The notes beneath the pieces are model-generated. The model ran no database searches. It had not been told where the DNA came from and worked only from the letters and a program-made list of their open reading frames with translations. The translations under genes and the position numbers were made by a program. From assembly GCA_026874595.1 (NCBI GenBank), contig CM049310.1:77741056-77805055 (forward strand): DNA of 64,000 bases, in the 5' to 3' direction. Shown here piece after piece: positions 13,904-64,000 of this stretch (the stretch's first letter is position 1; every line of letters begins with the position of its first letter). Origin of the DNA: Sipunculus nudus. Lineage: Eukaryota > Annelida > Sipuncula > Golfingiida > Sipunculidae.

Positions 13904-16430
13904 ACAAGTGACCCATGGGTAATGACGCTCAGCTGCCAAGCATGACCTGTGACATCATGGGCTGAGATTCACAACTTCCCGTCAAATGTTTGAAGAACCT
14001 TTTTCCCAATTTTGTTGAAACTTTCTACGATGACAGAAATATTCACATATGTCTGGTTAAAACACAGGGATTTGATGATCTGAGGCAAAATGTATGGTTG
14101 ATGAGCAATCAGGAACTAATCCCTTAGCTTGCTTGATACCTGTCAGTCTCAATGAATACCAAACAGGCCAAATATAAGATCAACATAAAAAGCAAAAACT
14201 TTAGAAATCACAGCAAGAATTATTTAGAAACGGATGCTTCTGTATGAATTTTTATTCAATACAAACCAACTGTACCGGACATTCATAAATGATGGTCATA
14301 TTTCCAAGTAATCTTTGATCCAATCCTTTGCAAGATTACATTTATATACGTCCCACTGCAAAAGGAGTTTAAGAATGGCTATCTAGTGGGCATATTGGAT
14401 TTCTGAAATCCGACAACGGACACCCTCTAAAAGAGACCAAACATTAAAAAAATCACAGAAACTACACTGACAAACGGATTTCTAAGGTGGCTAATTGGCA
14501 GACATAATAAATTTCTCACAAGTCTGACATTTGATATCACACATCCTCCAATAAGAGACCAAACTTGTGGCAATTGCTAAAAAAATGTTAAAGTATTGAA
14601 TGTCCAAAACAATTCAAAAGGCATGATCAGATTGGAGAGCTCTCATATAAGATTTACGGACATGCAAAAAAATAGTGTAAGTCCAATATTTTTTAAGTAT
14701 CACCTTGCTTTTTAGCGGATTCAGAAGGGTAGGTAAATTGCAAAACCTGAAAGACAAGAAATGCAGAAAGCATCACTAAGGGTCTTGTAGAACAAATAAA
14801 GCCATCCTAATTCCAGGTACAGACCCACATATTATCAGAACAAACACTTGCTTATATATCTGATGATTTATATAAAAATATTTAGATATCTAGGAAACTA
14901 GGTTTATTGCTATGATTCCATAATATAAACTGCAAAATGTTCCCGCCATCTTATAAATCAGGAGCTAAACCTTAATACAATACTTATAGTCTTAATGCCT
15001 CGCAGACGCATTTAGTAATACCTCCTCGGGCAACAGAGTGTTTTTGTTATATATACTAATGATGCCCGTATCATTCAAAGGGCTGATAAAAAAGGGAGTC
15101 TTATATCACAAGTGTCGCTCACAATTACGGGCATACAGTGAGATGTACCAATTGTAGTGCAATGGGTATATATACAAGAAAAATAGAGATGGTCTACAAA
15201 GTAAGTTTTTATTGTAAACATCCCTGACCTCTGACCTTGGCCTTTTTCCCACATATCAATTGGATTCTTTCTAGAATGATGGGTAACTACTAACCACTTA
15301 AAACTGCAGTAATCACTTGGCAACCAATGTGTGAATAACTTTGACCTGCAACCTTTTACCTTGTGACCAGCTGACCCCAAAATCAATAAGTTATTTCTTC
15401 AAGCAAACAGACCCATAAATATGAAGTTTGTATCAAATTGAACGATGCATAGATGAGGCATATATGAAAGACCGAAGGTCTGGGATGAACAATTTAGCTT
15501 GAAATATGTTCACAAACATTTGGAACAATTAAATATTGTGACCTTGAACTCTGACCTTTTGAACTCAACATCAATAGACTTCTTCCCCTATTGGTAGGTA
15601 AGCCATATAAGAGACATTGGAAGGTATAGGTTGAACAGTTTGCCTTAAAATGACTTCACGCAAGAAGTGGGTGCTGTGAACTGGATCTTTGACCTTAAAA
15701 AAAAACAGGTCTTTTCCCCCGTTAGCAGAGAAGCAATAAGTCAATGCTGGAAGAATTGGAATGAAAAGTGTAGCTTGAAATGTGTCCACAACCTTTTTAA
15801 AGAAGTTAATCCTGTGACCTTGACCTGTGACGTTTTGACCTCAAAATCTATAGGATTCTTCTCCCACTTGGTATGTGAGTCATATGTGAAAGATCAAAGG
15901 TTTGGAACGAAAGGGTTGGCATAAAATGCATCCACAAGCTTTTCAAAGAAGTGGGTCCTGTGACCTTGACCTTTGACCTTGTTGACCTAAAAATAATAAT
16001 GGTTCTTCCCTGTTCCTTGGTGAGTTGATATGAAAGATGGAAGGTTTGGGATGAAAATTTTGCCGATAAGAATTAATTCTTGGGGATGCAAACACACCCC
16101 GTAACTCAAAGAATATAGGTCGCAGTGACCTTATTTTAGGTATGCGTGAAGATCTTTTTAGAACCTCTAAGATGAAAATTTTGCCGATAAGAATTAATTC
16201 TTGGGGATACAAACACACCCCGTAACTCAAAGAATATAGGCCGCAGTGACCTTATTTTAGGTATGCGTGAAGATCTTTTTAGAACCTCTAAGAATGCATA
16301 GGGTTCATGATCCTAGCCCTTACGGTTAAGATTTGTGCCCTACTAACGGAGGGACGGACGAAAAAGACGGAAGGACGACGGACAAAGACCCATCGCTATC
16401 GCACAGCATGACTAAGTCAGCTGAGCTAAA
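13904..16430 (+). mobile_element. Constant-end element, TGACCT-type interior
   Basis: It starts with ACAAGTGACCCATGGGTAA, followed by GCTCAGCTG, and ends with a GGAC/GGACGA tract (16345-16385) and GTCAGCTGAGCTAAA. The interior from about 15200 to 16300 has diverged repeats with the TGACCTTGACCTTTGACCT core, the same family as the array at 43.6-49.2 kb. Two copies of a roughly 105-bp block (about 16050-16160 and 16170-16290) are nearly identical. The right arm lacks the element: homology is continuous up to GATACATA at 13896-13903 and then leaves, giving an independent left breakpoint. Confidence 0.75.
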
Positions 16431-16639
16431 TAGGGAAACCTGCAAAAAATTTATTTAATTTTAAAGAAAAACGACCAATCATCAATAACATATAATCCAT
16501 GAATTGGCACACAACTAATATATATTCACATACGTGGGTGTGCTACATTCTTAACATAGATACAAATTATAAAAACGCATAATAAAAATATATTTGTGGA
16601 TACTGATAAATCTCACGAGACCTGCCTTCTCTCATTTTC

Positions 16640-17062
16640 CAGGTATTGGCGAAACCAAAGTCAAATATGAGACAGACAAGCAGTACCTTAAAGTACTAGT
16701 ATTTGATCTATGAAAACACACCGAATGACAAGGATGCATGGGCTGCCGGGGGAAGTAGGGACATGGACAAGTTTAAAACCAAGGGATCACTTGCAGAAAC
16801 GGTAGCGTTAAGTTTATTTAAATATATATCAGGTCCAACCACAATACAGTCACAAACCAGGGATATTGTATATTCAATGCTTCTCTTCAACCAAGTATAG
16901 CCATATTCGACCATTGTTCCTCCAGACGCGGAAGAAGAGACCAAAGCGAGGCTCGACAGTCACTTTCATGTGTATCGTTAGTTTTTTTTTATTTTCCTAA
17001 CCGTGTGCTGCTGTGTAAAAGGTGCTGTGTTTTCAAGATGCAAGTCAAGTCTTACAGTTAGA
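16640..17062 (+). pseudogene. Broken left-arm copy of a membrane-protein terminal exon
   Basis: Inverted partner of the open exon at 24379-24858. The acceptor TTTTCCAG and the segment NDKDAWAAGGSRD are kept, as is the final FSRCKSSLTVRF followed directly by TAA. A 6-bp insertion creates a TAG near 16700, another stop follows FNQV, and the middle is frameshifted. Because the two arms agree on where the reading frame ends, this frame was probably coding before the duplication. Confidence 0.6.
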
Positions 17063-17065
17063 TTC

Positions 17066-17570
17066 TAAACGAATGTACTGATTATTAAAAAAAAAACATG
17101 AGAGGCCCATCAGGCTAATCAACTGTCAACTAGGCTATGGAACATGTTCAGCATGCAGTGGGGCGGGACATAAATTCAATGTGACAAGGTGTAGCCTAAC
17201 TCTTGGCCTATATTCAGAAAAAAAATCAAATTAAGAGCATAGTATTAAGCGAAATTGAAGCATATTAATGGAAACAAACTTCTCAATGCCTTAGATGACA
17301 TTTTCCCCAAGCAGTATCTAAATAAAAGTACACATTGGCTGCATGGTATAGCAGTACCAGTAAAGGTTGTTTTCAATAAGACCGTTTTCCCAAATATATG
17401 TATGTATCTGTACATACATTTCTCTATACCAAGCTATAAATGAACAAAACATACAGGAAAAAGAATACATACATACTGACAAATCTCGAACTGTAATAAT
17501 ATCAGAAAATTTCAACAACTTTGTATGAATACCGTAATTTTTATCTCAGTATCTATACAGATCCATGCCA
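17066..17570. other. Spacer, no gene seen
   Basis: AT-rich unique sequence between the end of left-arm homology and the 3' end of the LINE. Only short open frames without family features. Confidence 0.55.
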
Positions 17571-18551
17571 TTAGCTATTTGTTCAAATGAAATGTTGACA
17601 ATGTGAGAATCACTTCCATAAATTTATTCTTTAATAAGGCAGTGGAGAGATTTCCACTTAATTTCATGCTGTAGCAGTTTTTCTCTTTTGAGGGCGATAT
17701 ATTTTTCAATATTATGCATTTCTTTAATAAACATTTTACACTTCCTAGTCGTTGGTTGTTCTCTTCTACATCTACTAATATATAAGTACCTTTTGATAAG
17801 TGAAGTCATGAAATTCAACCATCTTGTATTGTAACATCCTAAGATGACATTATGAGCTGACCATATAAATGAGTTTGAGCTGCTCCATATGATTTAAATA
17901 TAGAAAGAATATCACTCCAAATCAATCTGGAAAAGCAACACTCCCAAAATAAGTGTTAAATGGTTTCATCCTCATTTTTTGCAAAAACTACATTCTGCAG
18001 AGTTAATTATATTTATCCTATAAAGAAAAAGGTTTAAAGTAATTCTGCGGTGTAGTATATAAAATTGGAACATCCTTAATTTTACAGATATAGTACAGTT
18101 AAATATATTACTGAAACCTTTATATACTTTCTCTTCAGATTTTGTTTGAAGTTCAGATTCCCAATTGTTGATTGCAGAAGTTGGCTTCTCCAGGTTCTTC
18201 TAAATCACCTTGGTGTATACACTTTTAGTCGGATATTTAGTCCTAATTATACTATCAAAGTTAAAATTATAAGGCGTGGCAATTGTTTCTGGCTTTTTAT
18301 TTTCAAGCAAGCTTTTCCATAGTTATCGGATGGCATTAATTATTCCATTACATGTTACAATATCTATTTTAACATTAAATTTATGACATAGCTCATTATG
18401 GTTTAACCAAACATTCTTTGCACCATCTGTTTTAATTATGTCAGATATATTTTATCCCTGCCGCATATAATAATCTGAGAAATATAACTTTATTTCCTCG
18501 TTTAATGTGAGAAATGAACCATATGATTTGATTTCTAATATCTGTGCGAGT

Positions 18552-21350: not shown

Positions 21351-21432
21351 ATTGATATTACACATTCAAGTGTAAATTAAAGAGACTGTTATGAATGTTA
21401 ATGTAATAGTGATAATTAATCTGTTATACCAC

Positions 21433-21433
<1 letters not shown>

Positions 21434-21474
<41 letters not shown>
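21434..21474. repeat. (AT)n microsatellite
   Basis: About 40 bp of pure AT dinucleotides between the LINE and the candidate exon at 21791-21994. A C homopolymer of about 22 bp follows at 21676-21697. Confidence 0.95.
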
Positions 21475-21476
<2 letters not shown>

Positions 21477-22847: not shown

Positions 22848-22849
22848 GT

Positions 22850-30165: not shown

Positions 30166-31601
30166 GGCCCGTATGCACAGTCGAAGTTTAGTTAGACCTG
30201 GTTCATTGTTAAACCTGGTTTGGTTAAACTCAGTTTATCATTGACTGTAGAGTTAAACTCCTCGTATTTAGTCAGTAATGAACCAAGCCAGGAGGCTATG
30301 CAACACACGATAAATAAAAACAAGTGACCCATGGGTCATGAAGCTCAGCCAACTGACATGTTGACAATATGTCCGTGCACAGGCAAATAATTCAGATAAT
30401 GTGGGTGCCATCATCATTCATGCATATTAGCTTAAGTTCATTAAGCCCGTATGCACACCAAATCTGATGACAATCCATCCAGCCATTACTTAGGAATCTG
30501 CCAATCTGACATGGGTAAAAGAGACAAATTCAGGATTCCAAGGAAACTTTTTATGGACCACCCTGGATGTCAAGTCCAGATCCAGTGGTTTGTGCACTGT
30601 TTACAGACAACCACATCTTTTAAGGTATCAAAATAGAGAAAAATTCGAAAAAAAATACAGGTTGCGCCACCAGTCTGCAGAAACTGATGAAACGATCCAT
30701 TATCAATCTCCATGCAAAGAATCATGGTGGTCGATGCAATAGTTGTTCAGATACTTGAGCTTTTGTATCAAATTTTCCATTATTCTGGGGAATACTTTAG
30801 AGCCCCATAGCATGAAGGATATGGGTTACATGGACCTAATTACAGGTTTCCAAGGCGGCTTTTCATGGGCCTCCCTGCATGTCAAGATAGAAGCTTCTAG
30901 GCCCAGTTGTTACGATTTGTGCCCTGTTAACAGATGACCGCATCTTTCAAGGTCTCAAAAATACCAAAAAAAAAAAAAAATTGTAAAAATCGAAGAAAAA
31001 AAATACAGGTGGCGCCACCTGTCTGCAGAAACTTATGAAACACTCCATGATCAATATCCATGAAAAGAATCATGGTGATCAATGCATTAGTTGTTTGGAT
31101 ACTTGAGCTTTGTATCAATTTTTCATTATTCTAGGGGCCGGGGGGGGGGGTACTTCGGAGCCCCATAGCTAACAAGTTATGGGTTCATAACAGGGACCAA
31201 GGTTTCCAAGGAGATTTTTAATGCACCTCCCTGGATGTCAAGTTAGAAGATTCTAGGTCCAGCGGTTACGATTTGTGCCTGGTTAACGGACGGACAAACA
31301 GATGGACGATGGACAAAGAGTGATCGCAATAGCTCAGATGACTTTTAGTCAGTTGAGCTAAAAACACCATGGCCAAAAGGATTTAATAGTAGAAGTTTTA
31401 AAAAGTTGTTGAAGCTGTTTTATTGCTGGACATCCTCATAAACCAGCCCTTTAACCTACTCATAGGAGATTTATCTTTTTGGGATAAAACTGGATAGTTT
31501 AATCTTGGTTTAAAGATAAACCTCCTTTTGGCATATCACCAAATTTTTAAACCTACCTTTAAACCTGGTTTTAGGTTAAACCATTTTTGTGCATACGGGC
31601 C
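30166..31601. mobile_element. PIF/Harbinger-like MITE carrying a nested element
   Basis: Perfect 14-bp terminal inverted repeats GGCCCGTATGCACA, with TTA on both sides (30163-30165 and 31602-31604), matching the TWA target duplication of PIF/Harbinger. Near both ends are repeated TTTAACCTGGTT-like words. No transposase is encoded. A constant-end element (30320-31363) has inserted inside, leaving only about 155 bp and 240 bp of Harbinger flank, so the host element was originally about 0.4 kb. Confidence 0.82.
30320..31363 (+). mobile_element. Constant-end element, GGCGCCACC-type interior
   Basis: It starts ACAAGTGACCCATGGGTCA with GCTCAGCCAACTGAC just inside, and ends with the hairpin at 31330-31360 (TAGCTCAG...TTGAGCTA) plus AAAA. 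The interior has two about 350-bp units, each with a GCGCCACC(A/T)GTCTGCAGAAACT landmark (30664 and 31010), and a short GGACGGAC tract before the hairpin. Being nested in a MITE, both its ends are defined independently. Confidence 0.8.
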
Positions 31602-46600: not shown

Positions 46601-49600
46601 TGGGCAAAATACAATTCAAGTTTGTAATCCATACATCAATAAAAGAAGGAATTATCATCCAGAAACTAATTTTTGGACAGATGGCTCCTGTGACCTTCAC
46701 CTTTGACCTTGTGACCTCAAAATTGATAGGGTTCTCCCTCTCTTGGCAGGTGAACTATATGTGCAAGATGAAAGATCTGAGATGAAATGTTTGGCTGAAA
46801 ATGCATCCACATCTTTTTAAAGATGTGTCCTGTGACCTTGACCTTTGACCTCATGAACCCAAAACCAATTTGGACATATACAAGTCAAGTTTGAAATCCA
46901 TACATCAATAAAAGCAGGAATTATCATCCAGAAACTAATTTTTGGACAGATGGCTCCTGTGACCTTCACCTTTGACCTTGTGACCTCAAAATTGACAGGG
47001 GTCTTCCACTCTTGGCAGGTGAACTATATGTGCAAGATGAAAGATCTGAGATAAATTTTTTGGCTCAAAATGCATCCACAATCTTTTTAAAGAGGTTTCC
47101 TGTGACCTTGACCTTTGACCTCATGACCCCAAAATCAATTCAGGTCTTGCTTTTCCAATGGGTCAAATACAAGTCAAGTTTGAAATCCATACATCAATAA
47201 AAGCAGGAATTATCATCCAGAAACTTATCTTTGGACAGATGGCTCCTGTGACCTTCACCTTTGACCTTATGACCTCAAAATTGATAGGGTTCTTCCTCTC
47301 TTGGTAGGTGAACTATATGTGCAAGATGAAAGATCTGAGATGATATGTTTGGCTGAAAATGCATCCACAATCTTTTTAAAGATGTGTCCTGTGACCTTGA
47401 CCTTTGACCTAATGACCCCAAAATCAATTTGGGTCTTGCTTTTCCAATGGGACATATACAAGTCAAGTTTGAAATCCATACATCAATAAAAGCAGGAATT
47501 TTCATCCAGGAACTAATTTTTGGACAGATGGCTCCTGTGACCTTCACCTTTGACCTTGTGACCTCAAAACTGATAGGGGTCTTCCTCTATTGGCAGGTGA
47601 ACTATATGTGCAAGATGAAAGATCTGAAATGAATTTGTTTGGCTGAAAATGCATCCACAATCTTTTTAAAGAGGTTTCCTGTGACCTTGACCTTTGACCT
47701 CATGACCCCAAAACCAATTCGGGTCTTGCTTTTCCAATGGGCAAAATACAATTCAAGTTTGTAATCCATACATCAATAAAAGAAGGAATTATCATCCAGA
47801 AACTAATTTTTGGACAGATGGCTCCTGTGACCTTCACCTTTGTACTTGTGACCTCAAAATTGATAGGGTTCTCACTCTCTTGGCAGGTGAACTATATGTG
47901 CAAGATGAAAGATCTGAGATGAAATGTTTGGCTGAAAATGCATCCACATCTTTTTAAAGATGTGTCCTGTGACCTTGACCTTTGACCTCATGAACCCAAA
48001 ACCAATTTGGACATATACAAGTCAAGTTTGAAATCCATACATCAATAAAAGCAGGAATTATCATCCAGAAACTAATTTTTGGACAGATCCTGTGACCTTC
48101 ACCTTTGACCTTGTGACCTCAAAATTGACAGGGGTCTTCCACTCTTGGCAGGTGAACTATATGTGCAAGATGAAAGATCTGAGATAAATTTTTTGGCTCA
48201 AAATGCATCCACAATCTTTTTAAAGAGGTTTCCTGTGACCTTGACCTTTGACCTCATGACTCCAAAATCAATTCAGGTCTTGCTTTTCCAATGGGTCAAA
48301 TACAAGTCAAGTTTGAAATCCATACATCAATAAAAGCAGGAATTATCATCCAGAAACTTATCTTTGGACAGATGGCTCCTGTGACCTTCACCTTTGACCT
48401 TATGACCTCAAAATTGATAGGGTTCTTCCTCTCTTGGTAGGTGAACTATATGTGCAAGATGAAAGGTCTGAGATGATATGTTTGGCTGAAAATGCATCCA
48501 CAATCTTTTTAAAGATGTGTCCTGTGACCTGGACCTTTGACCTAATTACCCCAAAATCAATTTGGGTCTTGCTTTTCCAATGGGACATATACAAGTCAAG
48601 TTTGAAATCCATACATCAATAAAAGCAGGAATTTTCATCCAGGAACTAATTTTTGGACAGATGGCTCCTGTGACCTTCACCTTTGACCTTGTGACCTCAA
48701 AACTGATAGGGGTCTTCCTCTATTGGCAGATGACTAATATGTGCAAGATGAAAGGTTTGAGATGAAATGTTTGGCTGAAAATGCATCCACAATCTTTTTA
48801 AAGATGTGTCCTGTGACCTTGACCTTTGACCTCATGACCCCAAAATCTATTGAAGTCTTGCTTTTCCAGTGGGACATATATAAGTCAAGTTTGAAATCAA
48901 TATATCAATAAAAACAGGAATTATCATCCAGAAACTAATTTATGGACAGATAGCTCCTGTGGCCTTGACCTTTGACCTTATGACCCCAACATTGATATCG
49001 ATCATCCACTATTGGCAAGTGAGCTATATATTCAAGATGGAAGACCAAGGATGAAAGTTTGGCTTAAAATGCATCCACAGTATCTTTTAAAATGCCAGTC
49101 AAGTGACCTCGACCTTTGACCTCATGACCCTGGAACCTATAGGGTTCTTACTTTAGTGGTAGGCCATACATAAGTCATGTTTGAAATCCAAATGGCTATC
49201 AACACTGGAGATATCATAATAGGGGTGTGTGATTTTCACCATATATGGCAATATTCAAGGTCAAGGCCACTTTCATAGGAAAGGTCATGACCCCAATTTA
49301 AATAAACATCATCCCATAACCCATACCTATGTATATGCATAATATAAAAGAAATCTGTCCATTAGTTTTTGACTTATAATTCTCACAGTACTGTAAGGTG
49401 GCAATTTTGGGGGTATTAAACGGCACGAAAACAAGTAAAGAATAATAGGTGGCGCCACCAGTTTCTGGAACATGACAACCCTATCCATGATCTTCCATCA
49501 GGTTGATTTTGGGATGAATCCATGCAAGATTTCTTGAGATATTAAAGAATTTGTGTGATTTTCCCCGAAATTGGACCTATTCAAGGTCAAGGACACTCTC

Positions 49601-52600: not shown

Positions 52601-55600
52601 TGGTGTATCATTAAATATAAATTTTACATTGATTAGGGCACTGTACACTGCTACACTTACAGTTTCATGAGATCTGCACTTAGTAAAATCTGCACAATAT
52701 CTTGGCTCACTCCCTCTGTGCCCTCCTTGGAGCCCACCATGAAATGCAGCAAACACTGAAATATATGAAAGCCTAAATGACAAGAGGAATATTTCATACA
52801 TATTACAAAACAGTCATGTCATTTTCCAGAAAATCATTTACCATGCATCATGTTCAAAACTAAAAAGATAAAATATAAAATAACATATGAAAGATTTTTA
52901 ACATGACAGTTCAGAAATCACTATTCATTTTACCAATACCCATGACTAAAAAGTTATTCTTCTCCATGTTTTTTTTAATTTGTAATTTCAGAAAAATAAT
53001 ATATTTGTATAATTATTAATATTGCCACTATTATAGCAGTAAATTTTATGATAATTTAAGTTGTGGAATCTACTGATTCACAATCCTAGAACAAATTTTA
53101 AAATATTCGGTCTTCTGCAATGTATGAATTAAGGATTGACAATTTTTTTACACTTTTATTATATTGGAATTCAGAAAAATGCAGATATATAAAACAAGGG
53201 ACCTATGGGTCACGACGCTCAGCTCTTATATATGATAAAAAAATATTATTTAGAAATGAGGCACATGCTGGTTTTGTGTGGTAATAAATATAAGCTGTAT
53301 TATAAGTTGTTGTTGTTTAGCTTATGTATGATTTTGCTTATGTATGATTTTGATAGTACCTTTGGAGACAGGGAAGAGGATTGATTTCATTTATTTTATT
53401 AACAAATGGAGTACTATTGTCACACAGATTTTGACTTGGCCATATAACTTATAAGCAGAACATATAATATAAGAGTTTAACTATATATTAAAAAAAATTT
53501 CAAATATTGTCCCAAATAATTTTTATAAAAAATAATAAGAGAATCATATGATTTTTTTAAATATAACTGATATGATTATTAAAATAATATTAAAGAATAT
53601 ATTCATATATGCATTCATGAATACATTTTGAAAGTATTTGCACGAGTATTCATATACTTTCATTTTTACCTGAATTCCTATTCTTTATGCAAGAAATTTT
53701 ATAATGGAGTACATAATCATATTCGTATTTAAATACAATTACAAAGTATTCGCACCATGTCTGGTATTTATTCAGTTTCACCAACCAATGATGTTGAGAA
53801 TCCAGAATATACAAAATTCACACATTTAAATAATGATCATAAGTACCTGGTTTTATGGCTTTTATTTATATTAAAAAATAAATGGTAAAAAATTCATTTT
53901 GGACTAATTTCACATCAATGTACACACTAGACACAGTAGGAATCTAGATTAATATTATCAACTGCATCTTTGTCTATCATTAATTTCCTTCATATGATCC
54001 CTAATGATTAGTAATGAATAATATGATTTACTTCTTTATCATTAAAATTGAACTGAAAAATGCCATAGGTGACTGCATGGTGTTATTTGGAATATGTGAC
54101 ATTCTACCCATCGATACAAGATTCTTATATCATCAGTAACTGCAAGTTAATTTCCTGTTATTATAAACTAACAAATTCCTTTTCTATTTTTCTTTAATTT
54201 GTTATTAAAAACCAATAAAAATTTATTAATTTATTGTTTATTGTTATGTTGTTGGTTAAAACTACTCGATGAGTTGGGTTGGACACCTGGATCAACTGTG
54301 GCTGGCCATAAGCTGCCTGGATTCCTGTATGCCTCGCCTCAAGCGTGCATAATTTGATGAAAGGTCAACAAGGTCAACATATAGGTGACTCAAGAGGGGC
54401 TGGAGAGAGCCAAAGTCTGACAGGGTCTCATAAAAAACATTAATAAAAGCTACACTTTTTGGCCAATTTCTTTCAGCTTTCTAAACTAAAAAGCTGAAAT
54501 CCTAATGTGTGCATGATATGAAAATTATATCAACAGTGCTCACAGGACACAAACGTGCCATGGTCACAGTTGGGCAAAATTTAAGGTACTAATTTTATAT
54601 TTATACTAATAACTTGTAAAATTTGAAAAATTCAGAACTAATTTTGGGTATTCAATTGAATCTCGATTAAATAATGTTACATCCCTGACAAAAAAATCTC
54701 TAGCTTCAGCAATGCCCTTGTTAAGGGAGTAAATATATTTCTTGATTTTTTACAAAGTGCATTATGTTTGGGCCCATAACTTAAAACAATTACGCAATAC
54801 TGACATCATTCTGGCATGTGCATAGAGAATGAAAAATATGTATATTATTTATGATTAAAGTCAGATCAGTGGTTTTGATATTAGGCAGTCTTGAAGTGTA
54901 ACAATGGGTTTTTAATGGAAAAATGAAGTTTTTCATTAATATCTCGAAGGTATTAAGTCCTAGTGACCAAATTCTTGGCATGGTAGGGGATTTTGGAGAC
55001 ATCTAACTGTATGCCGAATTTAAGGAACTAAGAGCTGAAGCTGGGGAGCTGAGCTCTTGCAAACTGCATAACACTAGCTTGATGTAAACAATATGTTACA
55101 TGGTGCTTGAAAACTTATTAAAATCTACAGTTTTTGATCAACTGGTTTCAAATTTTTGGTGTTAACAGTTGAAATGCTAACAAAAACATGCTGTGAAAAT
55201 TAAATCCACAGTACTTACAGGAAAAAAACGTGCCATGGTCAAAGTTGGGCAAAATTTAAGGTACCAATTTTTTATTTTTATTAATATTTTAGAAAATTTA
55301 AAAGATTTTCATCTAAATTTTGGTATACAATTTAATTTTGATTAATTAAAGTTATATTACTGGAAAAATGGTCGATAGCTTTAACATTTTTTGTGTTAAG
55401 TGATCAAATATCTTTCCTAATTTTTTACAAAATGCATTATGTTTGGGCCCATAACTTTTTTAAATTAAATAATACAGACATAATTTCTGGCACGTACATA
55501 GGAACTATATAGAGGAATATTAATTGTAAATATGAGGAAAAACAGATGAGCGGTTTTGATATTAGGCAGTCCTGAAGTGTGAAAATAGGTTTTTAATAAA

Positions 55601-58600
55601 AAATTGAGGTTTTTCCTTAATTTCTCAAAGGAACGAAGTTGCAAAGACCCAGTTTTCGGCTTGGTAGGAGATCTTGTCTATCATTAATTTCCTTCATATG
55701 ATCCCTAATGATTAGTAATGAATAATATGATTTACTTCTTTATCATTAAAATTGAACTGAAAAATGCCATAGGTGACTGCATGGTGTTATTTGGAATATG
55801 TGACATTCTACCCATCGATACAAGATTCTTATATCATCAGTAACTGCAAGTTAATTTCCTGTTATTATAAACTAACAAATTCCTTTTCTATTTTTCTTTA
55901 ATTTGTTATTAAAAACCAATAAAAATTTATTAATTTATTGTTTATTGTTATGTTGTTGGTTAAAACTACTCGATGAGTTGGGTTGGACACCTGGATCAAC
56001 TGTGGCTGGCCATAAGCTGCCTGGATTCCTGTATGCCTCGCCTCAAGCGTGCATAATTTGATGAAAGGTCAACAAGGTCAACATATAGGTGACTCAAGAG
56101 GGGCTGGAGAGAGCCAAAGTCTGACAGGGTCTCATAAAAAACATTAATAAAAGCTACACTTTTTGGCCAATTTCTTTCAGCTTTCTAAACTAAAAAGCTG
56201 AAATCCTAATGTGTGCATGATATGAAAATTATATCAACAGTGCTCACAGGACACAAACGTGCCATGGTCACAGTTGGGCAAAATTTAAGGTACTAATTTT
56301 ATATTTATACTAATAACTTATAAAATTTGAAAAATTCAGAATTAATTTTGGGTATTCAATTGAATCTCGATTAAATAATGTTACATCCCTGACAAAAAAA
56401 TCTCTAGCTTCAGCAATGCCCTTGTTAAGGGAGTAAATATATTTCTTGATTTTTTACAAAGTGCATTATGTTTGGGCCCATAACTTAAAACAATTACGCA
56501 ATACTGACATCATTCTGGCATGTGCATAGAGAATGAAAAATATGTATATTATTTATGATTAAAGTCAGATCAGTGGTTTTGATATTAGGCAGTCTTGAAG
56601 TGTAACAATGGGTTTTTAATAGAAAAATGAAGTTTTTCATTAATATCTCGAAGGTATTAAGTCCTAGTGACCAAATTCTTGGCATGGTAGGGGATTTTGG
56701 AGACATCTAACTGTATGCCGAATTTAAGGAACTAAGAGCTGAAGCTGGGGAGCTGAGCTCTTGCAAACTGCATAACACTAGCTTGATGTAAACAATATGT
56801 TACATGGTGCTTGAAAACTTATTAAAATCTACAGTTTTTGATCAACTGGTTTCAAATTTTTGGTGTTAACAGTTGAAATGCTAACAAAAACATGCTGTGA
56901 AAATTAAATCCACAGTACTTACAGGAAAAAAACGTGCCATGGTCAAAGTTGGGCAAAATTTAAGGTACCAATTTTTTATTTTTATTAATATTTTAGAAAA
57001 TTTAAAAGATTTTCATCTAAATTTTGGTATACAATTTAATTTTGATTAATTAAAGTTATATTACTGGAAAAATGGTCGATAGCTTTAACATTTTTTGTGT
57101 TAAGTGATCAAATATCTTTCCTAATTTTTTACAAAATGCATTATGTTTGGGCCCATAACTTTTTTAAATTAAATAATACAGACATAATTTCTGGCACGTA
57201 CATAGGAACTATATAGAGGAATATTAATTGTAAATATGAGGAAAAACAGATGAGCGGTTTTGATATTAGGCAGTCCTGAAGTGTGAAAATAGGTTTTTAA
57301 TAAAAAATTGAGGTTTTTCCTTAATTTCTCAAAGGAACGAAGTTGCAAAGACCCAGTTTTCGGCTTGGTAGGAGATCTTGGGGACATCTAACATTATGCC
57401 CAATTTTGGATTCCTAGGTCTTACGGTTTCAAAACGTGCCACATCTACGGACGGACGGACGGACGGACAGACGGACGGACGACGGACAATGGACCACGAC
57501 TATAGCTCAGATGACTTATAGTCAGCTGAGCTAATTACTGCCGTGTAGACAAAAAATAATTCACATTCCTGTTCTATGTTTGTCACTTTTATGATATAAA
57601 ACAAGGGACCCATGGGTCACGGCGCTCAGCTGATCGTGATTGGACTATAAATGTTTCTCCACTGTGATACTATATCGAGTCGATAAAGCTTATGAATATC
57701 ATGTACATGTTGGGCTATTATAAAGGAATGTAATGTAATATGTGAGTAAATGATAAATGAAATTATCTGACTGATGGATAAATAGAGTCAAATAAAGTGG
57801 TTTATTTTTTATTTATTTAGGAGGGTTTGAAAATTGTGATATATTTGAGCAAATATGAATGCAATGACAGCAGTAATAAGCAGTAGTAGAATGATGATAA
57901 GGCTATTTGTTGAAGGATCTAAAGTGTATGGTAGTCTGCAAGCGTTCAATTAGACAGATATGATGTTATGATTAACTATGCTGATGAAGTGATTTATGAA
58001 TATGTGACTGTATGACACAATATCTCTTTAGTCTTGACAAGGTACATTATTGTGATGCCCACTATGTCTACATATTACACAATATTGACATAATTTCTGG
58101 CATGTTCATAGGTACCTATGGACGAATAGTTATACAAAATATTAAAGTATGAATATATCTGATTCATCTTGTTCTTGCTTACTGAGGCTGACTTTGGCAT
58201 GGGGTTCGGAGAAGGGAAAAGTGAGGGCAGCATGGAGGTGTATGTAGAAATATTCTATTGTAATATTTTTCATTTATATAAGAATATGAAAAGCTAAGAG
58301 GAAAGGGGCCCTCCTACTTGGTTATAGTAAAGTTCTAAATATATGATTGCAAACTAATACTCTGACAAGATGGTCATGAAGAAAAACAGTAAAAGTTTTG
58401 AGATACTGTGTTGCATACGAAAATTTACAGATGGACAGGCAAGTGGACAGAATGGACTAATACCTTTATTTCACTTTCAAGAGAATAATGCATTTTATAA
58501 TCCTATTTTATTTAAGCATATCCACTTTTTCCATCAAGAAGTTTTTATCTGAATCATTACTTTATTTACAGGTTTATAATTTTTTAATTAAAAAACCTGA

Positions 58601-60934
58601 AAATATAAGTTAAAATATTAGAATTGTTGCAAAAGTTGCAATCATTATATATACAGAGTAAAAAACATTGGGTCATATTATGCATACACATATATTTTAT
58701 TATTTTTAAATCATAAATGTTTAAACTGATTTTAAAAGAAAATAATGCCACAACATGGCATCTACAAGAATATTCCTTGAATCACTATTAAAAAGTTTTG
58801 CACATTGGAGTTTTCAGGACATGCTTAATTTTATTCACCAAAATATAATAAAAGTAAATTTGATAAAATAAAACATCTTTTCAAATAAAGTATACACACT
58901 GTTGGTTGAATGAGGGACAAACAATATCATTGTGCTAATTACTATCCCAGTTTTAATTAATTACTGGAATTAATAGTCAATTCCACACCTGGTGAAGTTT
59001 TTACTCTTCTGAAGTAAGGAATTACTTATCTCATGAACATCCACACTTTCACAGCAATACACCACTTTGTGGACACAATTAAATGTACACTTTAATCATT
59101 GTAACCCCGGTGGTTCAATACAAAATCTAAAAAGTAGCATGTCCAAGAATAAAATAAAATACAGAAAAATTATAACATTCATCTAGTTTATGTACCAGCT
59201 GAGGGGGGGGGGGATGAGTGCAGGGCAAAGGGGAAGCCTGCTAGTAGTGGCCAAGCTGGGCCAAGGTAAGCTGCCTGGGGTGGGTTACATAATGCAAGTG
59301 AAGGCTGTACTCCTAGGTGGGATAGATGTAAACAACACTTGACATGGTGTATGAAAACATGAATAAAAGCTATTCATTCCAATCAATTTCTTTTGAAAGT
59401 TCAGATTTTAAAAGATTAAATCCTTATACATATATGCTGGGAAAATTAAATCAACAGTGCCAAAGTTGGACAAAATTTAAGGTATTGATTTTTTATTTAT
59501 GCTAATAACTTGAAAAATTTGCAAAATTCAGATCTAATATTGGGTAAACAATTGAATCTTGATTAAATAAAGTTATATTCCTGAAAAAAGGTCTCTAGGT
59601 TCAGCAATTCTCATGTTAGGTGAGTAAATATATTTCCTGATTTTTTTAAAAATTGCATTATGTTTTGGCCCATAACTTCAAAATAATACCCAATACTGAC
59701 CTAACTTTTGGTATGTTCATAGAAAATGTATAAAAGAATGTGAATACTAAATACGATCAAAAACAGATCAGTGGTTTTGATATTAGGCAGCCTTGAAGTG
59801 TAACAATGGCTTTTTTTATGGAAAACAGAGTTTTTTTTCCTTAATATCTCGAAGGAACAAAGTCCTAATGACCAAATTTTCGGTATGGTAGGAGATTTTG
59901 GGGACATCTAAATTATGCAACAGCCTGGGGAGCATAGAGATGTGCACTGAATGACCTACAGTCATCAAAGTGGACTGCTTGACAATGTAAGGGAATACAA
60001 CAAGAGCCTCCAAAAAAAATCAATAACTAGCCTAATTTTGCAGCTTTTATTTTCAAATTTCAGATTTTAACAGATTAAATCCTTATGTATAGCTGGTATG
60101 AAAATTAAATCCACAGTACGTACAGGAAAAAAACGTGCCATGGTCAAAGTTGGGCAAAATTTAAGGTACCAATTTTATATTTTTGCCAATATTTAAAAAA
60201 AATTAACAAATTTTGATCTAATTTTTGGTATACAATAGGATTTTGATTAATTAAAGTTGTATTACTGGAAAAAAGTCCCTACCTTTAACACTTTTGGTCT
60301 TAAGTGACCAAATATCTTCCTGATTTTTTTACAAAGTCCATTATGTTTGGGCCCATAACTTTTTTAAATTATATAATACTGACTTAATATCTGGCATGTA
60401 CATAGGAACTATATAGAGTAATATTTATGGTAAATATGAAGAAAACCAGATGAGTGGCTTTGATATTAGGCAGTCCTGAAGTGTAAAAATAGATTTATAA
60501 TAAAAAAATGAGGTTTTTCCTTATATCTCAAAGGCACGAAGTTCTATTGACCCAATTTTTGGCATGGTAGGAGATTATGGGGACATCTAACTGTATGCCG
60601 AAATTCAGATTCGTAGGTCCAATGGTGTCGAAACGTGCCAGTCTTACAGACGGACATCCAGACAGACAGACGGACGGACGGACGACGGACAATGGACCAT
60701 GACTATAGCTCAGATGACTTAAAAGTCAGCTGAGCTAAAAAGGCATTTACAATTTTTTAAGACATTTGAATAAACAATTCTGGAGAATGATAAATTAATA
60801 ATTCTGTGATCTTTCTGATGACTATGACTTTTCTCACCTCCCATCGCTCCATGGCCTTCTGGTCCAGGAATGAGATATCTTTGGCATGTTTATCAGCTCC
60901 CAGGGCAGAACCAGTTCCAGTCCATGCTTGGCCA
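34530..60934 (-). CDS. GTF2H4: GTF2H4, TFIIH subunit p52 (5' end outside window)
   Basis: p52 (yeast Tfb2) is a core subunit of TFIIH, the nuclear complex for RNA polymerase II initiation and nucleotide excision repair. It anchors the XPB helicase and stimulates its ATPase, and its C-terminus pairs with the small subunit p8/TTDA. Eleven minus-strand exons (60838-60934, 52661-52755, 51538-51649, 43401-43469, 42736-42819, 40988-41120, 40318-40369, 39977-40055, 36477-36524, 35259-35399, 34530-34649) total 1030 nt. That is one carried-in base plus 343 codons including the TAG stop, in phase throughout. Hallmarks are [62 protein letters not shown] and EVKRFWKRQ. The animal protein is about 460 residues, so roughly the first 120 lie above 64000. 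All introns are GT-AG. Confidence 0.97.
35259..35399 (-). CDS. GTF2H4: GTF2H4 exon
   Basis: 47 codons, [20 protein letters not shown] then [20 protein letters not shown], the start of the p8/TTDA-binding C-terminal region. Phase 0 on both sides, acceptor CTTTCAG, donor AGG|GTGAGT. A dead copy is at 3441-3579. Confidence 0.97.
36477..36524 (-). CDS. GTF2H4: GTF2H4 exon (48 nt)
   Basis: 16 codons, [16 protein letters not shown], phase 0. Acceptor CTTGCAG, donor GTG|GTAAGT. A dead copy is at 3099-3147 on the other strand. Confidence 0.95.
37453..39317 (+). mobile_element. Constant-end element, one 670-type unit
   Basis: It starts ACAAGGGACCTATGGGTCA with GCTCAGCTGA inside, and ends with a GGAC-rich tract (39225-39265) and the hairpin at 39283-39313 plus AAAA. 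The interior has about 1.1 kb of AT-rich sequence, then one unit with landmarks CGTGCCATGGTCAAAGTTGG (38710), TGTTTGGGCCCATAACTT (38920) and GATATTAGGCAGTCCTGAAG (39038). It lies in the intron between the exons at 36477 and 39977. Confidence 0.78.
39954..39976. repeat. (CA)n microsatellite forming a splice donor
   Basis: About 23 bp of CA (GT on the transcribed strand), contiguous with the 3' end of the GTF2H4 exon at 39977-40055. Confidence 0.95.
39977..40055 (-). CDS. GTF2H4: GTF2H4 exon with donor inside a (GT)n run
   Basis: Completes an Arg codon, then 26 codons, [16 protein letters not shown] then CRGITAEQ. Acceptor TTCATAG. The donor is CAG followed by an about 23-bp GT dinucleotide run, so the intron start is microsatellite and lacks the usual A at +3/+4 and G at +5 context of its neighbours. 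Confidence 0.94.
40318..40369 (-). CDS. GTF2H4: GTF2H4 exon (52 nt)
   Basis: Very short exon encoding [17 protein letters not shown] with two bases at its start and two at its end shared with neighbours. Acceptor TTTGCAG, donor ACAG|GTGAGT. Confidence 0.94.
40988..41120 (-). CDS. GTF2H4: GTF2H4 exon
   Basis: 44 codons plus one base: [18 protein letters not shown], then [17 protein letters not shown]. This is the most conserved block of the protein. Acceptor TTTTCAG, donor ACAG|GTAATA. Confidence 0.96.
41160..41860. repeat. Tandem repeat, about 180-bp unit
   Basis: Four diverged copies, landmark GATCTGTAAC or GATCTGGAAC near 41291, 41470, 41652 and 41825, giving periods of about 179, 182 and 173. 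Each also carries AGGAGCCGTAAAA and AGTAGGTCAAC-like words. It sits in the intron above the exon at 40988-41120. Confidence 0.85.
42736..42819 (-). CDS. GTF2H4: GTF2H4 exon
   Basis: 28 codons, [14 protein letters not shown] then [14 protein letters not shown], phase 0. Acceptor TACTTCAG, donor AAG|GTAAAT. Confidence 0.95.
43401..43469 (-). CDS. GTF2H4: GTF2H4 exon
   Basis: 23 codons, [20 protein letters not shown] then LGK, in phase 0 on both sides. Acceptor ATTGCAG, donor AAG|GTAAGT. The upstream intron (8.1 kb) holds the minisatellite and the 6.2-kb satellite element. Confidence 0.95.
43534..49780 (+). mobile_element. 6.2-kb intronic element with satellite core and terminal hairpin
   Basis: The left edge has GTATCCCCAGACATAGTAG. 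The right edge (49754-49780) is a near-perfect hairpin, GTATCCCCCGAC - TTT - GTCTGGGGATAC, whose 3' half is the inverse of the left-edge word. Just inside the right edge is a GGCGGCGGCGGGACCGG stretch. The core (about 43640-49170) is the TGACCT satellite; then follow a GGTGGCGCCACC unit (49449) and degenerate copies. Left breakpoint is less certain than right. Confidence 0.6.
43640..49170 (+). repeat. TGACCT satellite, dimeric about 289 bp with higher-order repeats
   Basis: The unit is a dimer of two about 145-bp halves. One half starts CCTGTGACCTTGACCTTTGA and the other CCTGTGACCTTCACCTTTGA, each followed by a different body. By length there are roughly 19 dimers. Higher-order copies are visible: a block repeats at 846 bp (43870 to 44716, 44173 to 45019), one at 289 bp (45587 to 45876) and a four-dimer block at about 1133 bp (47012 to 48145, 47429 to 48562). 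Short open frames recur with the unit and are not genes. Confidence 0.93.
49790..50300. other. Intron segment, nothing recognised
   Basis: Unique AT-rich intron sequence between the satellite element and the minisatellite. Confidence 0.5.
50310..51574 (-). repeat. 49-bp minisatellite made from a GTF2H4 exon end and its splice donor
   Basis: About 26 units of 49 bp. On the transcribed strand each unit is 36 nt of exon (codons [12 protein letters not shown]) plus 13 nt of intron (GTGAGTACAGGTG). The first unit is the true end of the exon at 51538-51649; all others lie downstream in the intron. Units alternate in two sequence types over 50500-50900 (98-bp period), and a 341-bp block is repeated (about 50900-51120 and 51240-51465). 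Most units keep a consensus donor CAG|GTGAGT. The farthest units (50310-50450) are the most diverged. Confidence 0.95.
51538..51649 (-). CDS. GTF2H4: GTF2H4 exon whose 3' end seeds a minisatellite
   Basis: It completes the Leu codon, then encodes [20 protein letters not shown] and [13 protein letters not shown], the conserved ITxxGFQFLL block of p52. Donor CAG|GTGAGT. The last 36 nt (12 codons) plus the first 13 intron bases form the unit of the 49-bp array that begins at this splice site and runs into the intron. Confidence 0.95.
51660..52650. other. Intron segment, nothing recognised
   Basis: Intron between two GTF2H4 exons. No repeat family or coding signal identified; short open frames only. 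Confidence 0.5.
52661..52755 (-). CDS. GTF2H4: GTF2H4 exon
   Basis: It encodes [12 protein letters not shown], then [17 protein letters not shown], and leaves two bases (CT) for the next exon. Acceptor ATTTCAG, donor AAACT|GTAAGT. Confidence 0.95.
53194..57536 (+). mobile_element. Constant-end element with an internal 1.7-kb duplication
   Basis: It starts ACAAGGGACCTATGGGTCA, then ACGCTCAGCT, and ends with a GGAC tract (57448-57485) and the hairpin at 57503-57533. The interior has AT-rich sequence and paired about 670-bp units (landmark CGTGCCATGGTC at 54556, 55227, 56260 and 56935). An exact-looking tandem duplication (53972-55675 and 55676-57379) doubles the pair. It lies in the GTF2H4 intron between 52755 and 60838. 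Confidence 0.78.
53972..57379 (+). repeat. Recent tandem duplication, 1704-bp unit, two copies
   Basis: Copies 53972-55675 and 55676-57379 differ at only a handful of positions that I noticed (for example CTTGTAAAA/CTTATAAAA and AATGGAAAA/AATAGAAAA). The junction joins GGAGATCTTG to TCTATCATT, and the outer flanks share ATCTT/TTG with the junction, a short microhomology. Confidence 0.93.
57601..60740 (+). mobile_element. Constant-end element, module M1 plus 670-type units
   Basis: It starts ACAAGGGACCCATGGGTCA with GCGCTCAGCTGA, and ends with a GGAC tract (60668-60690) and the hairpin at 60706-60737. The first 1.15 kb (M1) is nearly the same as 61547-62768. From about 59340 come two units of the 670 type (CATAACTT and GATATTAGGCAG landmarks at 59670/59780 and 60352/60460). 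Confidence 0.78.
60838..60934 (-). CDS. GTF2H4: GTF2H4 exon (first one visible)
   Basis: It encodes GQAWTGTGS, then [15 protein letters not shown] and MERWE, matching the p52 segment before LHFMVG. One base of the first codon comes from the missing upstream exon. Acceptor AACAG, donor GAG|GTGAGA. The next exon is 8 kb away, across two large elements. Confidence 0.93.
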
Positions 60935-61546
60935 CTGTTAACATATATGTAACACTAAGTCTGTTGACAACTGAATCAGCATCCTATAAAGTCATCTGAT
61001 TCTCTTTTGTTTGATTCTATCTGAAGAGATATATACTTGCAATACATATGTAGATTTATCAATGTTTGAAGTATTTATCTGCATCAAATTTTTCAAATAT
61101 TTAATTGATCTACGTTACATTTAATCCTTTCATCCCAAAACTTTATACTTACTATTAATTCAATGATAACTTCTTTTTCATTTGATAATGGCTTACCCTT
61201 TAAACTAATTTCGTTTGCATGATATTGTATAGAAAATGAAACCAGAAAACATTCAATACCAACAAAAAGGGATGACATTTGTTGGATACATATACTGTTC
61301 CTCTCTTAAACTGAAATGATCTGTAAGAAAAAATCCTTACAATTCTTACTTAGCCCAAATCTTTAATTTCAACTTCAAAGAAATTTATTGAGAACCATGG
61401 GAAATCCAAGATACTACATGGACAAATAAACAAACTGAAAAACTGAATCAAACACATAATCACAGACACAGACCTGGGGCGCGGGGTTAAATTTCTTGGA
61501 ATGAACACACAAAGACATCTGTTGACCCCTGCCCACCCCCCTAAAT

Positions 61547-64000
61547 ACAAGGGACCCATGGGTCACGGCGCTCAGCTGATCATGATTGGACTATAAATGT
61601 TTCTCCACTGTGATACTATATCGAGTCCATAAAGCTTATGAATATCATGGACATGTTGAGCTATTATAAAGGAATGTAATGTAATATGTGAGTAAATGAT
61701 AAATGAAATAACCTGACTGATGGATTAATAGAGTCGAATATAGTGGTTAATTTTTTATTTATTTAGGAGGGGTTGAAAATTGTGATATATTTGAGCAAAT
61801 ATGAATGCAATGACAGCAGTAATAAGCAGTAGTAGAATGATGATAAGGCTATTTGTTGAAGGATCTAAAGAGTATGGTAGTCTGCAAGCTTTCAATTTGA
61901 CAGATATGATGTTATGATTAACTATGCTGATGAAGTGATTTATGAATTTGTGACTGTATGACACAAAATCTCTTTAGTCTTGACAAGATACATTATTGTG
62001 ATGCCCACCATGTCTACATATTACACAATATTGACATAATTTCTGGCATGTACATAGGTACCTATGGACGAATAGTTATACAAAATATTAAAGTATGAAT
62101 ATATCTGATTCATCTTGTTCTTGCTTACTGAGGCTGACTTTGGGATGGGGTTCGGAGAAGGGAAAAGTGAGGGCAGCACGAAGGTGGATGTAGAAATATT
62201 CTATTGTAATGTTTTTCATTTATATAAGAATATGAAAAGCTAAGAGGGAAGGGGCCCTCCTACTTGGTTATAGTAAGGTTCTAAATATATGATTGCAAAC
62301 TAATACTCTGACAAGACTGTCATGAAGAAAAACAGTAAAAGTTTTGAGATACTGTGATGCATATGAAAATTTACAGATGGACAGGCAAGTGGACAGAATG
62401 GAAAAATACCTTTATTTCACTTTCAAGGGAATCATGCATTTAAGTTTATATATAATCCTATTTTTTTAAGCATATCCAGTTTTTCCATTAAGAAGTTTTT
62501 ATCTGAATCATTTTTTTATTTACAGGTTTCATAAATTTTTAATAAAAAAAAACTGAAAATATAAGTTAAAATATTAGAATTGTTGCAAAAGTTGCAATCA
62601 TTATATATACAGAGTAAAAAACTGAAACTATAAGTTAAAATATTAGAATTGTTGCAAAAGTTGCAATCATCATATATCCAGAGTGTAGCCCATATTGGGT
62701 CATATTATGCATACACATATATTTTATTATTTTTAAATCATAAATGTTTAAACTGAATTTAAAAGAAAACTAGAATACGGGTAGTCGACAAGCGACTACG
62801 TGTATCCACCTAAATCAGAGTGGAACGGGTGAAGTGAGGCATGGATTGAGTGGCAAGGGGAAATAGAGTGTTGCATATTAGCATGGATGTCTGCAGCCAA
62901 ATTGTGTATGTAGGTTGCCCCCCCACCACAAAATCCAGAAAGCCGTCCAAGTTGTATACATATGCAAAATTTAAGGCAGATAAGTCAAACCACTACATGT
63001 ATATGAGTGATTTTAGCCTGTGGCAGACAAACAGATGGACGCAGAGCAAAAATGGTTGCAGGTGACGCCACCAGTTTTGTGTATGATAAAGAGCTATGTG
63101 AGAACTATACACATGCAAAACTTTGGCCCAATCGGTCAAACGGTTCCCCAGATATGAGCTTGGATGTCTGCTGCATAAACTAGAATGCAGGTGGCGCCAC
63201 CTGTCATAAAATCAAGAGAGCTGTTGGGGATGTATAAACCTGCAAACTTTTAGGCAGATATGTCAAACCACTGCTGAGATATGAGTGATTTTATCCCATT
63301 GCAGACAAACAGACAGGAGCTGTGCAAAAATGGCTGCAGGTGGCGCCACCAGTTTTGCGTATGATAAAGAGCTATGTGAGATCTATACACATGCAAAACT
63401 TTGGCCCAATCGGTCAAACGGTTCCCGAGATATGAGCTTAGTTGTCTGCAGCGTAAACGTGAATGTAGGTGGCGCCACCTGTCATAAAATCAGAAAAGCT
63501 ATCCAGGATGTATAAGCATGCCAAATTCAGGTGAATTAGTCAAGTCACTGCAGAGATATGAGTGATTTTAACCCAAGGCTGGCGAACAGATGGACACTCA
63601 CTGTGCAAACATGGTTGCAGGTAGCGCCACCATTTTTGGTGTATGTTATAAAGCTCTCCAAGGGCTACATTTGTGCAAAAGAATTTTCCTGATCGGTCAA
63701 ACGGTTCCCGAGATATGAGCTTGGATGTCTGCAGCATTAACATGAATGTAGGTGGCGCCACCTGTCATAAAATTGGAAAAACTATCCAGGATGTATAAGC
63801 ATGCCAAATTCAGGTGAATTAGTCAAGTCACTGCAGAGATATGAGTGATTTTAACCCAAGGCTGATGAACAGATGGACACTCACTGTGCAAACATGGTTG
63901 CAGGTAGCGCCACCATTTTTGGTGTTTGTTATAAAGCTCTCCAAGGGCTACATTTGTGCAAAAGAATTTTCCTGATCGGTCAAACGGTTCCCGAGATATG
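61547..64000 (+). mobile_element. Constant-end element, module M1 plus GGCGCCACC array (runs off window)
   Basis: Same start and 1.15-kb M1 module as the element at 57601, but after about 62768 it continues into a tandem array with GGTGGCGCCACC landmarks. Within M1 a roughly 71-bp block is locally duplicated (about 62545-62680). The 3' hairpin must lie beyond 64000. Confidence 0.78.
62900..64000 (+). repeat. GGTGGCGCCACC tandem array, dimer about 281 bp
   Basis: Landmarks alternate between a GCGCCACC(A)GTTTT/ATTTTT type (63062, 63337, 63618, 63901) and a GGTGGCGCCACCTGTCATAA type (63189, 63467, 63751). Same-type spacing is 275-284 bp, so the array is a dimer of about 140-bp halves. The halves also share GAGATATGAG and GGTCAAACGGTTCCCGAGA words. 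Confidence 0.92.

Follow-up and report, generated by a model that had tools for sequence, protein, structure and literature searches.

HINEs with tandem-repeat cores in Sipunculus nudus share their ends with full-length Helentrons

A stretch of 64,000 nucleotides from the annelid Sipunculus nudus (assembly GCA_026874595.1, contig CM049310.1, positions 77,741,056 to 77,805,055 of the forward strand; hereafter the window) contains six related elements with similar ends and tandemly repeated interiors, named E1 to E6 and listed in Table 1. Their ends occur in two subtypes, alpha and beta, and their interiors consist of a core and a 3' module (types T1 to T3, among others). The core of E4 includes an internal 1.7-kb duplication with 99.8% identity. 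E6 continues past the window edge, where a 670-bp-type block follows its GGTGGCGCC array; its true 5' end was not reached within 4 kb past the edge.

Table 1. Features of the window, in positions counted from its first base
Feature	Position	Strand	Description
E1	13904..16428	-	HINE, alpha-type 3' end, TGACCT core (~145-bp units), true 5' end 16428, hairpin degenerate
E2	30320..31360	-	HINE, alpha-type end; core ~80% identical to a segment of the autonomous Helentron A leader
E3	37453..39313	-	HINE, beta-type end, 670-bp-type core, 3' module T2
E4	53194..57533	-	HINE, beta-type end, 670-bp-type core, 3' module T1
E5	57601..60737	-	HINE, beta-type end, 670-bp-type core, 3' module T3
E6	61547..64000, continues past window	-	HINE, beta-type end, module T3, GGTGGCGCC array
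True 3' end, example	57601..57633	-	subterminal inverted repeat TCAGCTGAGC, 4 nt, T, palindrome GACCCATGGGTC, C, terminal CTTGT
True 5' end, example	57503..57533	-	TAGCTCAGCTGACT / TCATCTGAGCTA hairpin; identical 31 bases in E3
ACGG (GTCC-type) microsatellite	57447..57487	-	adjoins true 5' end
Tandem array, free-standing	43677..49130	.	289/145-bp units, related to E1 core

A preliminary description, made from the letters alone, had presented the six as transposon-like units related to Helentrons, with fixed ends and exchangeable satellite cores. Its observations are partly confirmed. The word ACAAGKGACCYATGGGTCA, allowed up to three mismatches, has six matches in the whole window, all on the plus strand and all at the places where the six elements had been located; five are exact, and the match at 13904 carries one mismatch. 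The expected count is 0.08, and six matches were reached in none of 100 shuffles. The common 5' end of that description holds for this word at all six places, but the adjoining GCTCAGCTGA follows exactly in only three elements (37453, 57601 and 61547) and as variants in the other three. At the opposite end, a stretch rich in ACGG/GGAC and a terminus in ...GAGCTA are present in all five elements that end inside the window, but the arms TAGCTCAG...CTGAGCTA of the reported hairpin are complete in only three (37453, 53194 and 57601), with one change at 30320 and no TAGCTCAG arm at 13904.

The orientation first given to the elements was backwards relative to the Helentron convention. Published HINEs start with a subterminal inverted repeat (subTIR), its inverted repeat and a microsatellite, and they finish with a subTIR and a palindrome (PMC7492417, PMC4067079; these and the other papers named below are cited for the parts of their text that bear on such points). 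Several oyster HINEs carry a GTCY/GTCC microsatellite (PMC7492417). The minus-strand reading of the window elements fits this plan, with a TAGCTCAGCTGACT...TCATCTGAGCTA hairpin, a GTCC-type tract, the core, TCAGCTGAGC, four nucleotides and TGACCYATRGGTCMCTTGT. Read on this strand, the window elements are HINEs, that is, non-autonomous Helentrons, and the misfit with Helitron termini that had been remarked on earlier vanishes. Helentrons are recognised by inverted subterminal repeats of at least 11 bp that are identical within a family (PMC4067079). By eye, an 11-bp pair of this kind, in which GCTCAGCTGAC near the 5' end is answered by its complement GTCAGCTGAGC near the 3' end, is present in E3 and in the full-length copy A introduced below; in elements with module T1 the repeat is shorter, about 9 bp. 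The 5' hairpin is predicted to be stable, as 40 bases of DNA at the E3 end fold at -10.4 kcal/mol (z -5.6), with none of 200 shuffles as good. The 3' palindrome GACCCATRGGTC is present by sequence in 25 of 26 elements. Membership among classic Helitrons, with 5' TC, 3' CTRR and A^T insertion, was rejected, as the ends read TAGC...CTTGT and insertion is at T^T.

These ends are abundant far beyond the window. In the 1.43-Gb genome, the exact true-3'-end word has 28,093 matches (14,023 and 14,070 by strand) and the true-5'-end (hairpin) word has 25,247 (12,806 and 12,441 by strand); the reversed controls gave 0 in both cases. The pairing of the two was analysed at the start of the chromosome designated C1. 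Among the matches listed there, the hairpin word lies within 5 kb downstream of 55 of 100 plus-strand end words, and in the reverse order it precedes 23 of 100, while in 2,000 rounds of shifting the second list circularly the count averaged 15.3 and never exceeded 32. The ordered pairs that the preliminary description had proposed to look for are therefore real on this part of C1.

Insertion sites were characterised in 25 complete elements, namely E1 to E5 and 20 sampled ones. The latter are the first of 53 clean C1 pairs of up to about 4.5 kb (one longer pair was skipped), all from plus-strand matches and all within C1 0.09-0.50 Mb. TTTT stands directly before the 5' end in 21 of the 25, the other four having one or two A inside it, and T directly follows the 3' end in every case; positions -4, -1 and +1 are T in 25/25 flanks. 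For six elements, the joined flanks matched uninterrupted copies (empty sites) in the DNA compared, with a clean junction in L026, L027, L037 and L041 and a less clean one in L025 and L028. No target duplication was seen in any of these six empty sites, and the joined flanks of the HINE in locus L012 gave no match across the junction. Insertion thus occurs at TTTT^T, a T-rich site, without target duplication. All six best empty sites lie inside other HINEs, in a search of DNA that was mostly HINE loci and hence biased, and in all six, by reading of the coordinates, the younger element points the same way as the older, although ATTTTT is balanced between the two strands.

A Rep/helicase partner with the same ends, another check that had been proposed, was found in two full-length copies. 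PF14214 has at least 143 matches in the genome. Autonomous copy A extends from C17:35640362 down to 35625478 (14,885 bp) and copy B occupies C1:71789258-71805194 (15,937 bp); both ends are present in each, with TTTT immediately before and T immediately after. Homology between A and B runs from the TTTT before TAGC to one base past CTTGT, and the flanks differ. The ends are common to HINEs and autonomous copies, and homology stops at these ends in copies on different chromosomes. The partner was identified when the core of E6 matched the leader of an autonomous copy on the other strand. A partner with its Rep gene in the orientation first assumed was sought among 15 Rep loci (L001-L015) and rejected; there the end words occur only in HINEs in or beside L009 and L012.

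The open reading frame (ORF) of A has 2,342 codons (P0001), with Herpes_teg_N, DUF6570, Helitron_like_N and PIF1 domains over the cut-off and the motifs HIHMLMW and YIVSYVSK. PF14214 and PF05970 are over the cut-off both in P0001 and in P0002, the ORF of locus L003, which is about 92-93% identical to A in DNA over its main 6-kb stretch; P0002 also has Exo_endo_phos_2 over the cut-off. Over the two proteins together, a Rep (HUH, two Tyr), a PIF1-type helicase and a C-terminal apurinic/apyrimidinic (AP)-like endonuclease are present; the motifs taken as catalytic follow the usual assignment. In the autonomous ORFs at L002:903-7928 (minus) and L003:1254-8513 (plus), the coding region includes a tandem repeat of 21 residues (63 bp), and a domain at the N-terminus matches Herpes_teg_N; deubiquitinases of this type are the subject of PMC9741609. 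At the leader start, both A and B have two 5' ends in tandem and one 3' end; the double ends stand at 238 and 962 in the A composite L016 (the inner with one mismatch) and at 359 and 1421 in L052.

The tails of 17 autonomous-type loci were inspected for the 3' end. The end word is present in nine (A, B, L055, L056, L057, L061, L053, L063 and L064, with one mismatch in L055 and L063), a diverged form is present in two (L060 and L062), and six have none. The alpha copies L055-L057 are 98% identical to A as far as the 3' end and a few bases on. A beta lineage, about 70% identical to the alpha lineage in the Rep core, behaves similarly, as L053 (and L064) and L063 are 99% alike up to the same 3' end, with a flank shared by L053 and L064. 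The beta tails of L053 and L064 finish in GCCGTGACCCATGGGTCCCTTGT, the variant carried by the 670-bp HINEs, and A finishes in ATCATGACCCATGGGTCACTTGT, the alpha form. Exact subtype patterns that also require GCTCAGC have 7,371 (alpha) and 14,813 (beta) matches genome-wide. The link to autonomous partners is thus made by both ends in A and B and by 3' ends in L055-L057, L053, L063 and L064; for the 670-bp core class the partner was seen by its 3' end only. Other lineages were rejected as drivers, as the L001/L004/L006 type (about 35% in the Rep core) and a 57% lineage (L054) have no such 3' ends in the tails of L001, L004 and L054. L001 and L004 belong to a separate Helentron lineage, in which L004 has an OTU domain; the two are alike until just past the stop codon and then differ, and the ends of this lineage were not found.

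The interiors of the HINEs can also be traced, in part, to the autonomous copies. When 5'-proximal cores were grouped by single-linkage blastn (at least 150 bp at 70% or more), 23 of the 25 complete elements fell into one class, the 670-bp class; E1 forms a class of its own, and E2 groups with A. In A and B, the leader, about 7 kb long, holds E2-type sequence (about 80%) near its 5' end and, before the ORF, GGTGGCGCC-type sequence that is 66-71% identical to E6, amounting to 3.5 units of about 279 bp in B and about 0.6 kb in A. The 3' modules are of type T1 in 11 elements, T2 in eight and T3 in L031, E5 and E6, and L027, L043, E1, E2 and A each have their own. Among the 40 longest matches, several of these modules resemble autonomous tails: that of L027 in two stretches, of 358 bp (88%) and 126 bp (85%), six of the eight T2 modules at 75-77% over 152-178 bp, that of E1 at 81% over 467 bp (to the tail of the autonomous-type locus L061) and that of L043 at 78% over 343 bp. 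L027 also contains an open stretch that, by eye, looks like the C-terminal part of the Helentron endonuclease.

Taken together, the HINEs are very probably deletion derivatives of several Helentron lineages that inherited the leader arrays of these lineages and are moved by full-length Helentrons in the same genome. They would arise when several autonomous lineages lose the coding middle. The tandem cores would then be inherited leader arrays, and the 3' modules, where traced, would be autonomous tails. The Rep/helicase/endonuclease of full-length copies would move the HINEs in trans within this genome, with Rep probably nicking at TAGCTCAG (5') and strand displacement presumably proceeding to the terminator formed by the 3' subTIR, palindrome and CTTGT. 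The displaced strand may then be joined into a T-run, possibly selected by the AP-like endonuclease domain.

Several observations weigh against this explanation. Rolling-circle transposition is inferred from the proteins and the ends, and no transposition was observed. Exo_endo_phos in P0001 reaches 20.5 of the 24.5 bits required, and the ORF of A is without the last SDH motif seen in L003, so that the endonuclease of A may not be intact. The six tails without the end word are those of L003, L058, L059, L054, L001 and L004; the L059 sequence covered stops some 48 bp before the point at which its match to L043 would end, and L003, whose ORF is close to that of A, differs in its flanks and lacks the end word in the DNA covered. 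About 8.6 kb upstream of the beta ORF were inspected without a 5' end being found, and the 670-bp core, which is the commonest in the sample, was seen in none of the autonomous copies. Among the matches listed, the T2 module of E3 resembles a beta tail over 106 bp only (74%), L034 matches an autonomous tail over the end only, and T1 and T3 (E4-E6) match none beyond short stretches or the end word. Additionally, the 3' palindrome folds no more stably than shuffles, of which 25 and 104 out of 200 did as well.

The strongest competitor holds that the ends are fixed while the cores are swapped between elements by recombination or template switching, which resembles a cut-and-replace idea in the literature (PMC7492417). 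The 670-bp core occurs with five types of 3' module among the 23 complete elements of its class, as such cassette exchange would predict. E5 and L031 share T3 and the 670-bp block with E6 and are without its middle GGTGGCGCC array, which would also fit an exchange. E6 had been said to differ by its GGTGGCGCCACC units, but within the 4 kb examined past the window its order is 670-bp block (94% identical to that of E5 at 57601), GGTGGCGCC array and T3. It carries both cores, and a clean core swap between E5 and E6 was dropped; the leader of A and B likewise already has two cores. The end subtypes bear on the same question. Beta-type ends come with the 670-bp core in 24 of 24 elements (the 20 sampled and E3-E6). 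Alpha elements with the 3' end in view number 11 (E1, E2, L012, L074-L076 from C1 pairs, and five left partners of junctions between adjacent elements); junction J3, whose 3' end could not be seen, does not figure in this count. When the core is read from the outermost 5' end, seven of the 11 have an E2-type core, two the TGACCT core of E1, and two, the left partner of J1 and L076, begin with 670-bp-type sequence, a further point for exchange. An inner 5' end word is followed by an E2-type core in the former and by an E1-type core in the latter, and both can be read as a 670-bp-type piece placed before an ordinary alpha element. Alpha ends thus go with alpha cores in 9 of 11 elements, or in 11 of 11 when the inner 5' end is counted. 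Cores independent of subtype were not found in this sample, which is small and mostly from C1. Free swapping of satellite cores, as first proposed, is not supported, as subtype and core co-segregate and the leader already holds two arrays, and the earlier interpretation is in this sense only partly supported. Cassette exchange, unlikely from the outset, became somewhat more so because of the inner 5' ends in J1 left and L076.

A second alternative, slightly less probable again, concerns the adjacent elements, which could be head-to-tail multimers produced by rolling-circle read-through. A 5'-border word followed within 0-30 nt by a 3'-border word forms 232 junctions genome-wide, with 0 in the control and about 8 expected by chance from the two end counts, a rough figure because the junction pattern uses a looser hairpin word. 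Such concatemers would account for these close head-to-tail neighbours, for the two 5' ends in A and B, and for two 5' ends in the left partner of J2 and three in that of J6; plant arrays with many 5' ends and one 3' end are comparable, in the part of PMC12628747 that describes them. Among the matches listed, gaps are 0-5 nt in 69 of 100 junctions and nearly all A/T, and 14 of 100 have no spacer, as multimers would; against this, spacers of 1, 3 and 4 nt (12, 18 and 13 of 100) are about as common as none. Sequence comparison of the partners also speaks against multimers. In three of the four testable zero-gap junctions (of five), the partners share only the terminal 32-33 bp when the first 1,500 bp are compared. 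The fourth shares partial stretches (best 76% over 376 bp), and the partners of the single gap-3 junction tested are 78% alike over 966 bp. The best explanation is that neighbours are mostly independent insertions into the T-run that borders an older copy. Head-to-tail stacking would follow because each insertion leaves TTTT directly before TAGC at its 5' border and thereby offers a new target.

Target-site duplication and symmetric terminal inverted repeats are the hallmarks of miniature inverted-repeat transposable elements (MITEs) moved by DDE transposases. Membership in this class was rejected, as no target duplication was found and the ends are asymmetric. That some such other machinery moves these ends, their likeness to Helentrons being fortuitous, is next to impossible: inverted words do stand at both ends and pearl elements were first described as MITEs (PMC7492417), but, beyond the six empty sites and the asymmetry, a Helentron ORF lies between the same ends in A and B, which already contradict it.

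The orientation of the elements is unevenly distributed near the start of C1. Strand counts were taken from lists that give both strands, and, among the matches listed, 95 of 100 5' ends in C1:0.09-3.4 Mb are on the plus strand. One orientation is held by 61 of 62 in 0.09-1.18 Mb; all four in 1.236-1.272 Mb are minus, a block also present in alpha and beta 3' ends; and all 34 in 1.51-2.91 Mb have the first orientation again. Alpha matches agree with the nearest beta match in 18 of 19 cases there, which is partly expected, plus being the commoner strand. Past these first 3 Mb of C1, the effect becomes weak or mixed, or disappears. Outside C1:0-3.5 Mb, alpha neighbours alone (unmerged) agree in 52 of 79 cases, a value reached by 79 of 20,000 shuffles. 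In C1:3.5-15.5 Mb, where three lists were merged into clusters, neighbouring clusters agree in 61 of 104 cases (reached by 891 of 20,000 shuffles), with a longest run of 12 (401 of 20,000), and in C1:16.4-28.9 Mb there is no effect (agreement in 19 of 40). In sparse lists outside C1:0-3.5 Mb, one of them entered as 44 places up to C9 only, pairs 20-200 kb apart agree in 14 of 19 cases and pairs 200-500 kb apart in 17 of 38; no chromosome-end rule for strand is visible in them by eye, without a count. Target abundance as the cause was rejected, as ATTTTT is balanced both inside elements (260 vs 261) and in the window outside elements and arrays (60 vs 58). Among the matches listed, T-runs of at least 18 occur on both strands over the first 7.1 Mb of C1, though in small number. 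One speculative and rather improbable idea is that Helentron insertion is coupled to the host replication fork, so that a single-stranded element would enter one template strand and its orientation would record fork direction. Fork-coupled insertion into one template strand has been described for the bacterial IS200/IS605 transposons, in the part of PMC5371812 cited here.

The closest known counterpart is Cg_HINE of the oyster Crassostrea gigas, as described in the cited part of PMC7492417. It is alike in its 5' subTIR, inverted repeat and microsatellite (GTCY/GTCC in several elements), tandem core, and 3' subTIR and palindrome, and also in its T-rich sites, lack of target duplication and some related flanks with different cores; the likeness is one of described architecture. 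In that account, no relation to the HINEs could be established for any of 10 autonomous oyster elements, whereas in Sipunculus the link is made for two full copies and for six further 3' ends, and the autonomous leader holds two cores. Bivalve pearl elements, with short core arrays between fixed flanks, are alike by description and were later reclassed as non-autonomous Helentrons (PMC7492417). DINE-1/HINE elements and their autonomous Helentrons, in the relevant part of PMC4067079, share the 5' subTIR, inverted repeat, 3' palindrome and T-rich/TT insertion, as well as deletion derivatives and a Rep/Helicase/endonuclease partner with the same ends. The Sipunculus elements differ from them in TTTT^T in 21 of 25 flanks and in two end subtypes, and their autonomous copies in a leader of about 7 kb with two tandem-repeat regions and in an N-terminal Herpes_teg_N-like domain. 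Classic Helitrons such as Helraiser are alike in the HUH Rep with helicase and in the 3' terminator structure (PMC4778049), and Helitrons likewise leave no target duplication (PMC7492417); here, in contrast, there are no 5'-TC/CTAG-3' ends, insertion is at T^T and not A^T, and an endonuclease domain is present.

Not every array in the window lies within such elements. The free-standing 5.4-kb array is up to 79% similar to the E1 core, and no such end words were found in the region that holds it, between 39400 and 53190. Two further tandem arrays, of 49-bp units (50371-51576) and 182-bp units (41252-41846), have no match to the elements or to A, B and C. These elements may plausibly spread satellites in this genome, although the E1-like array lies in the window without these ends.

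All of the most abundant satellite-like arrays in the oyster, which make up 49% of those detected, lie inside HINEs, whose drivers were left unresolved in the cited part of PMC7492417. No autonomous partner for bivalve HINEs was found in the open-access papers searched, as far as their cited parts go, Repbase and subscription papers being outside this scope. In Sipunculus, both ends tie a driver to its derivatives, and two of the arrays lie within the driver itself. An alternative to the view that transposons capture satellites has thus become testable, namely that satellites may originate as Helentron leader arrays and be dispersed as deletion derivatives.

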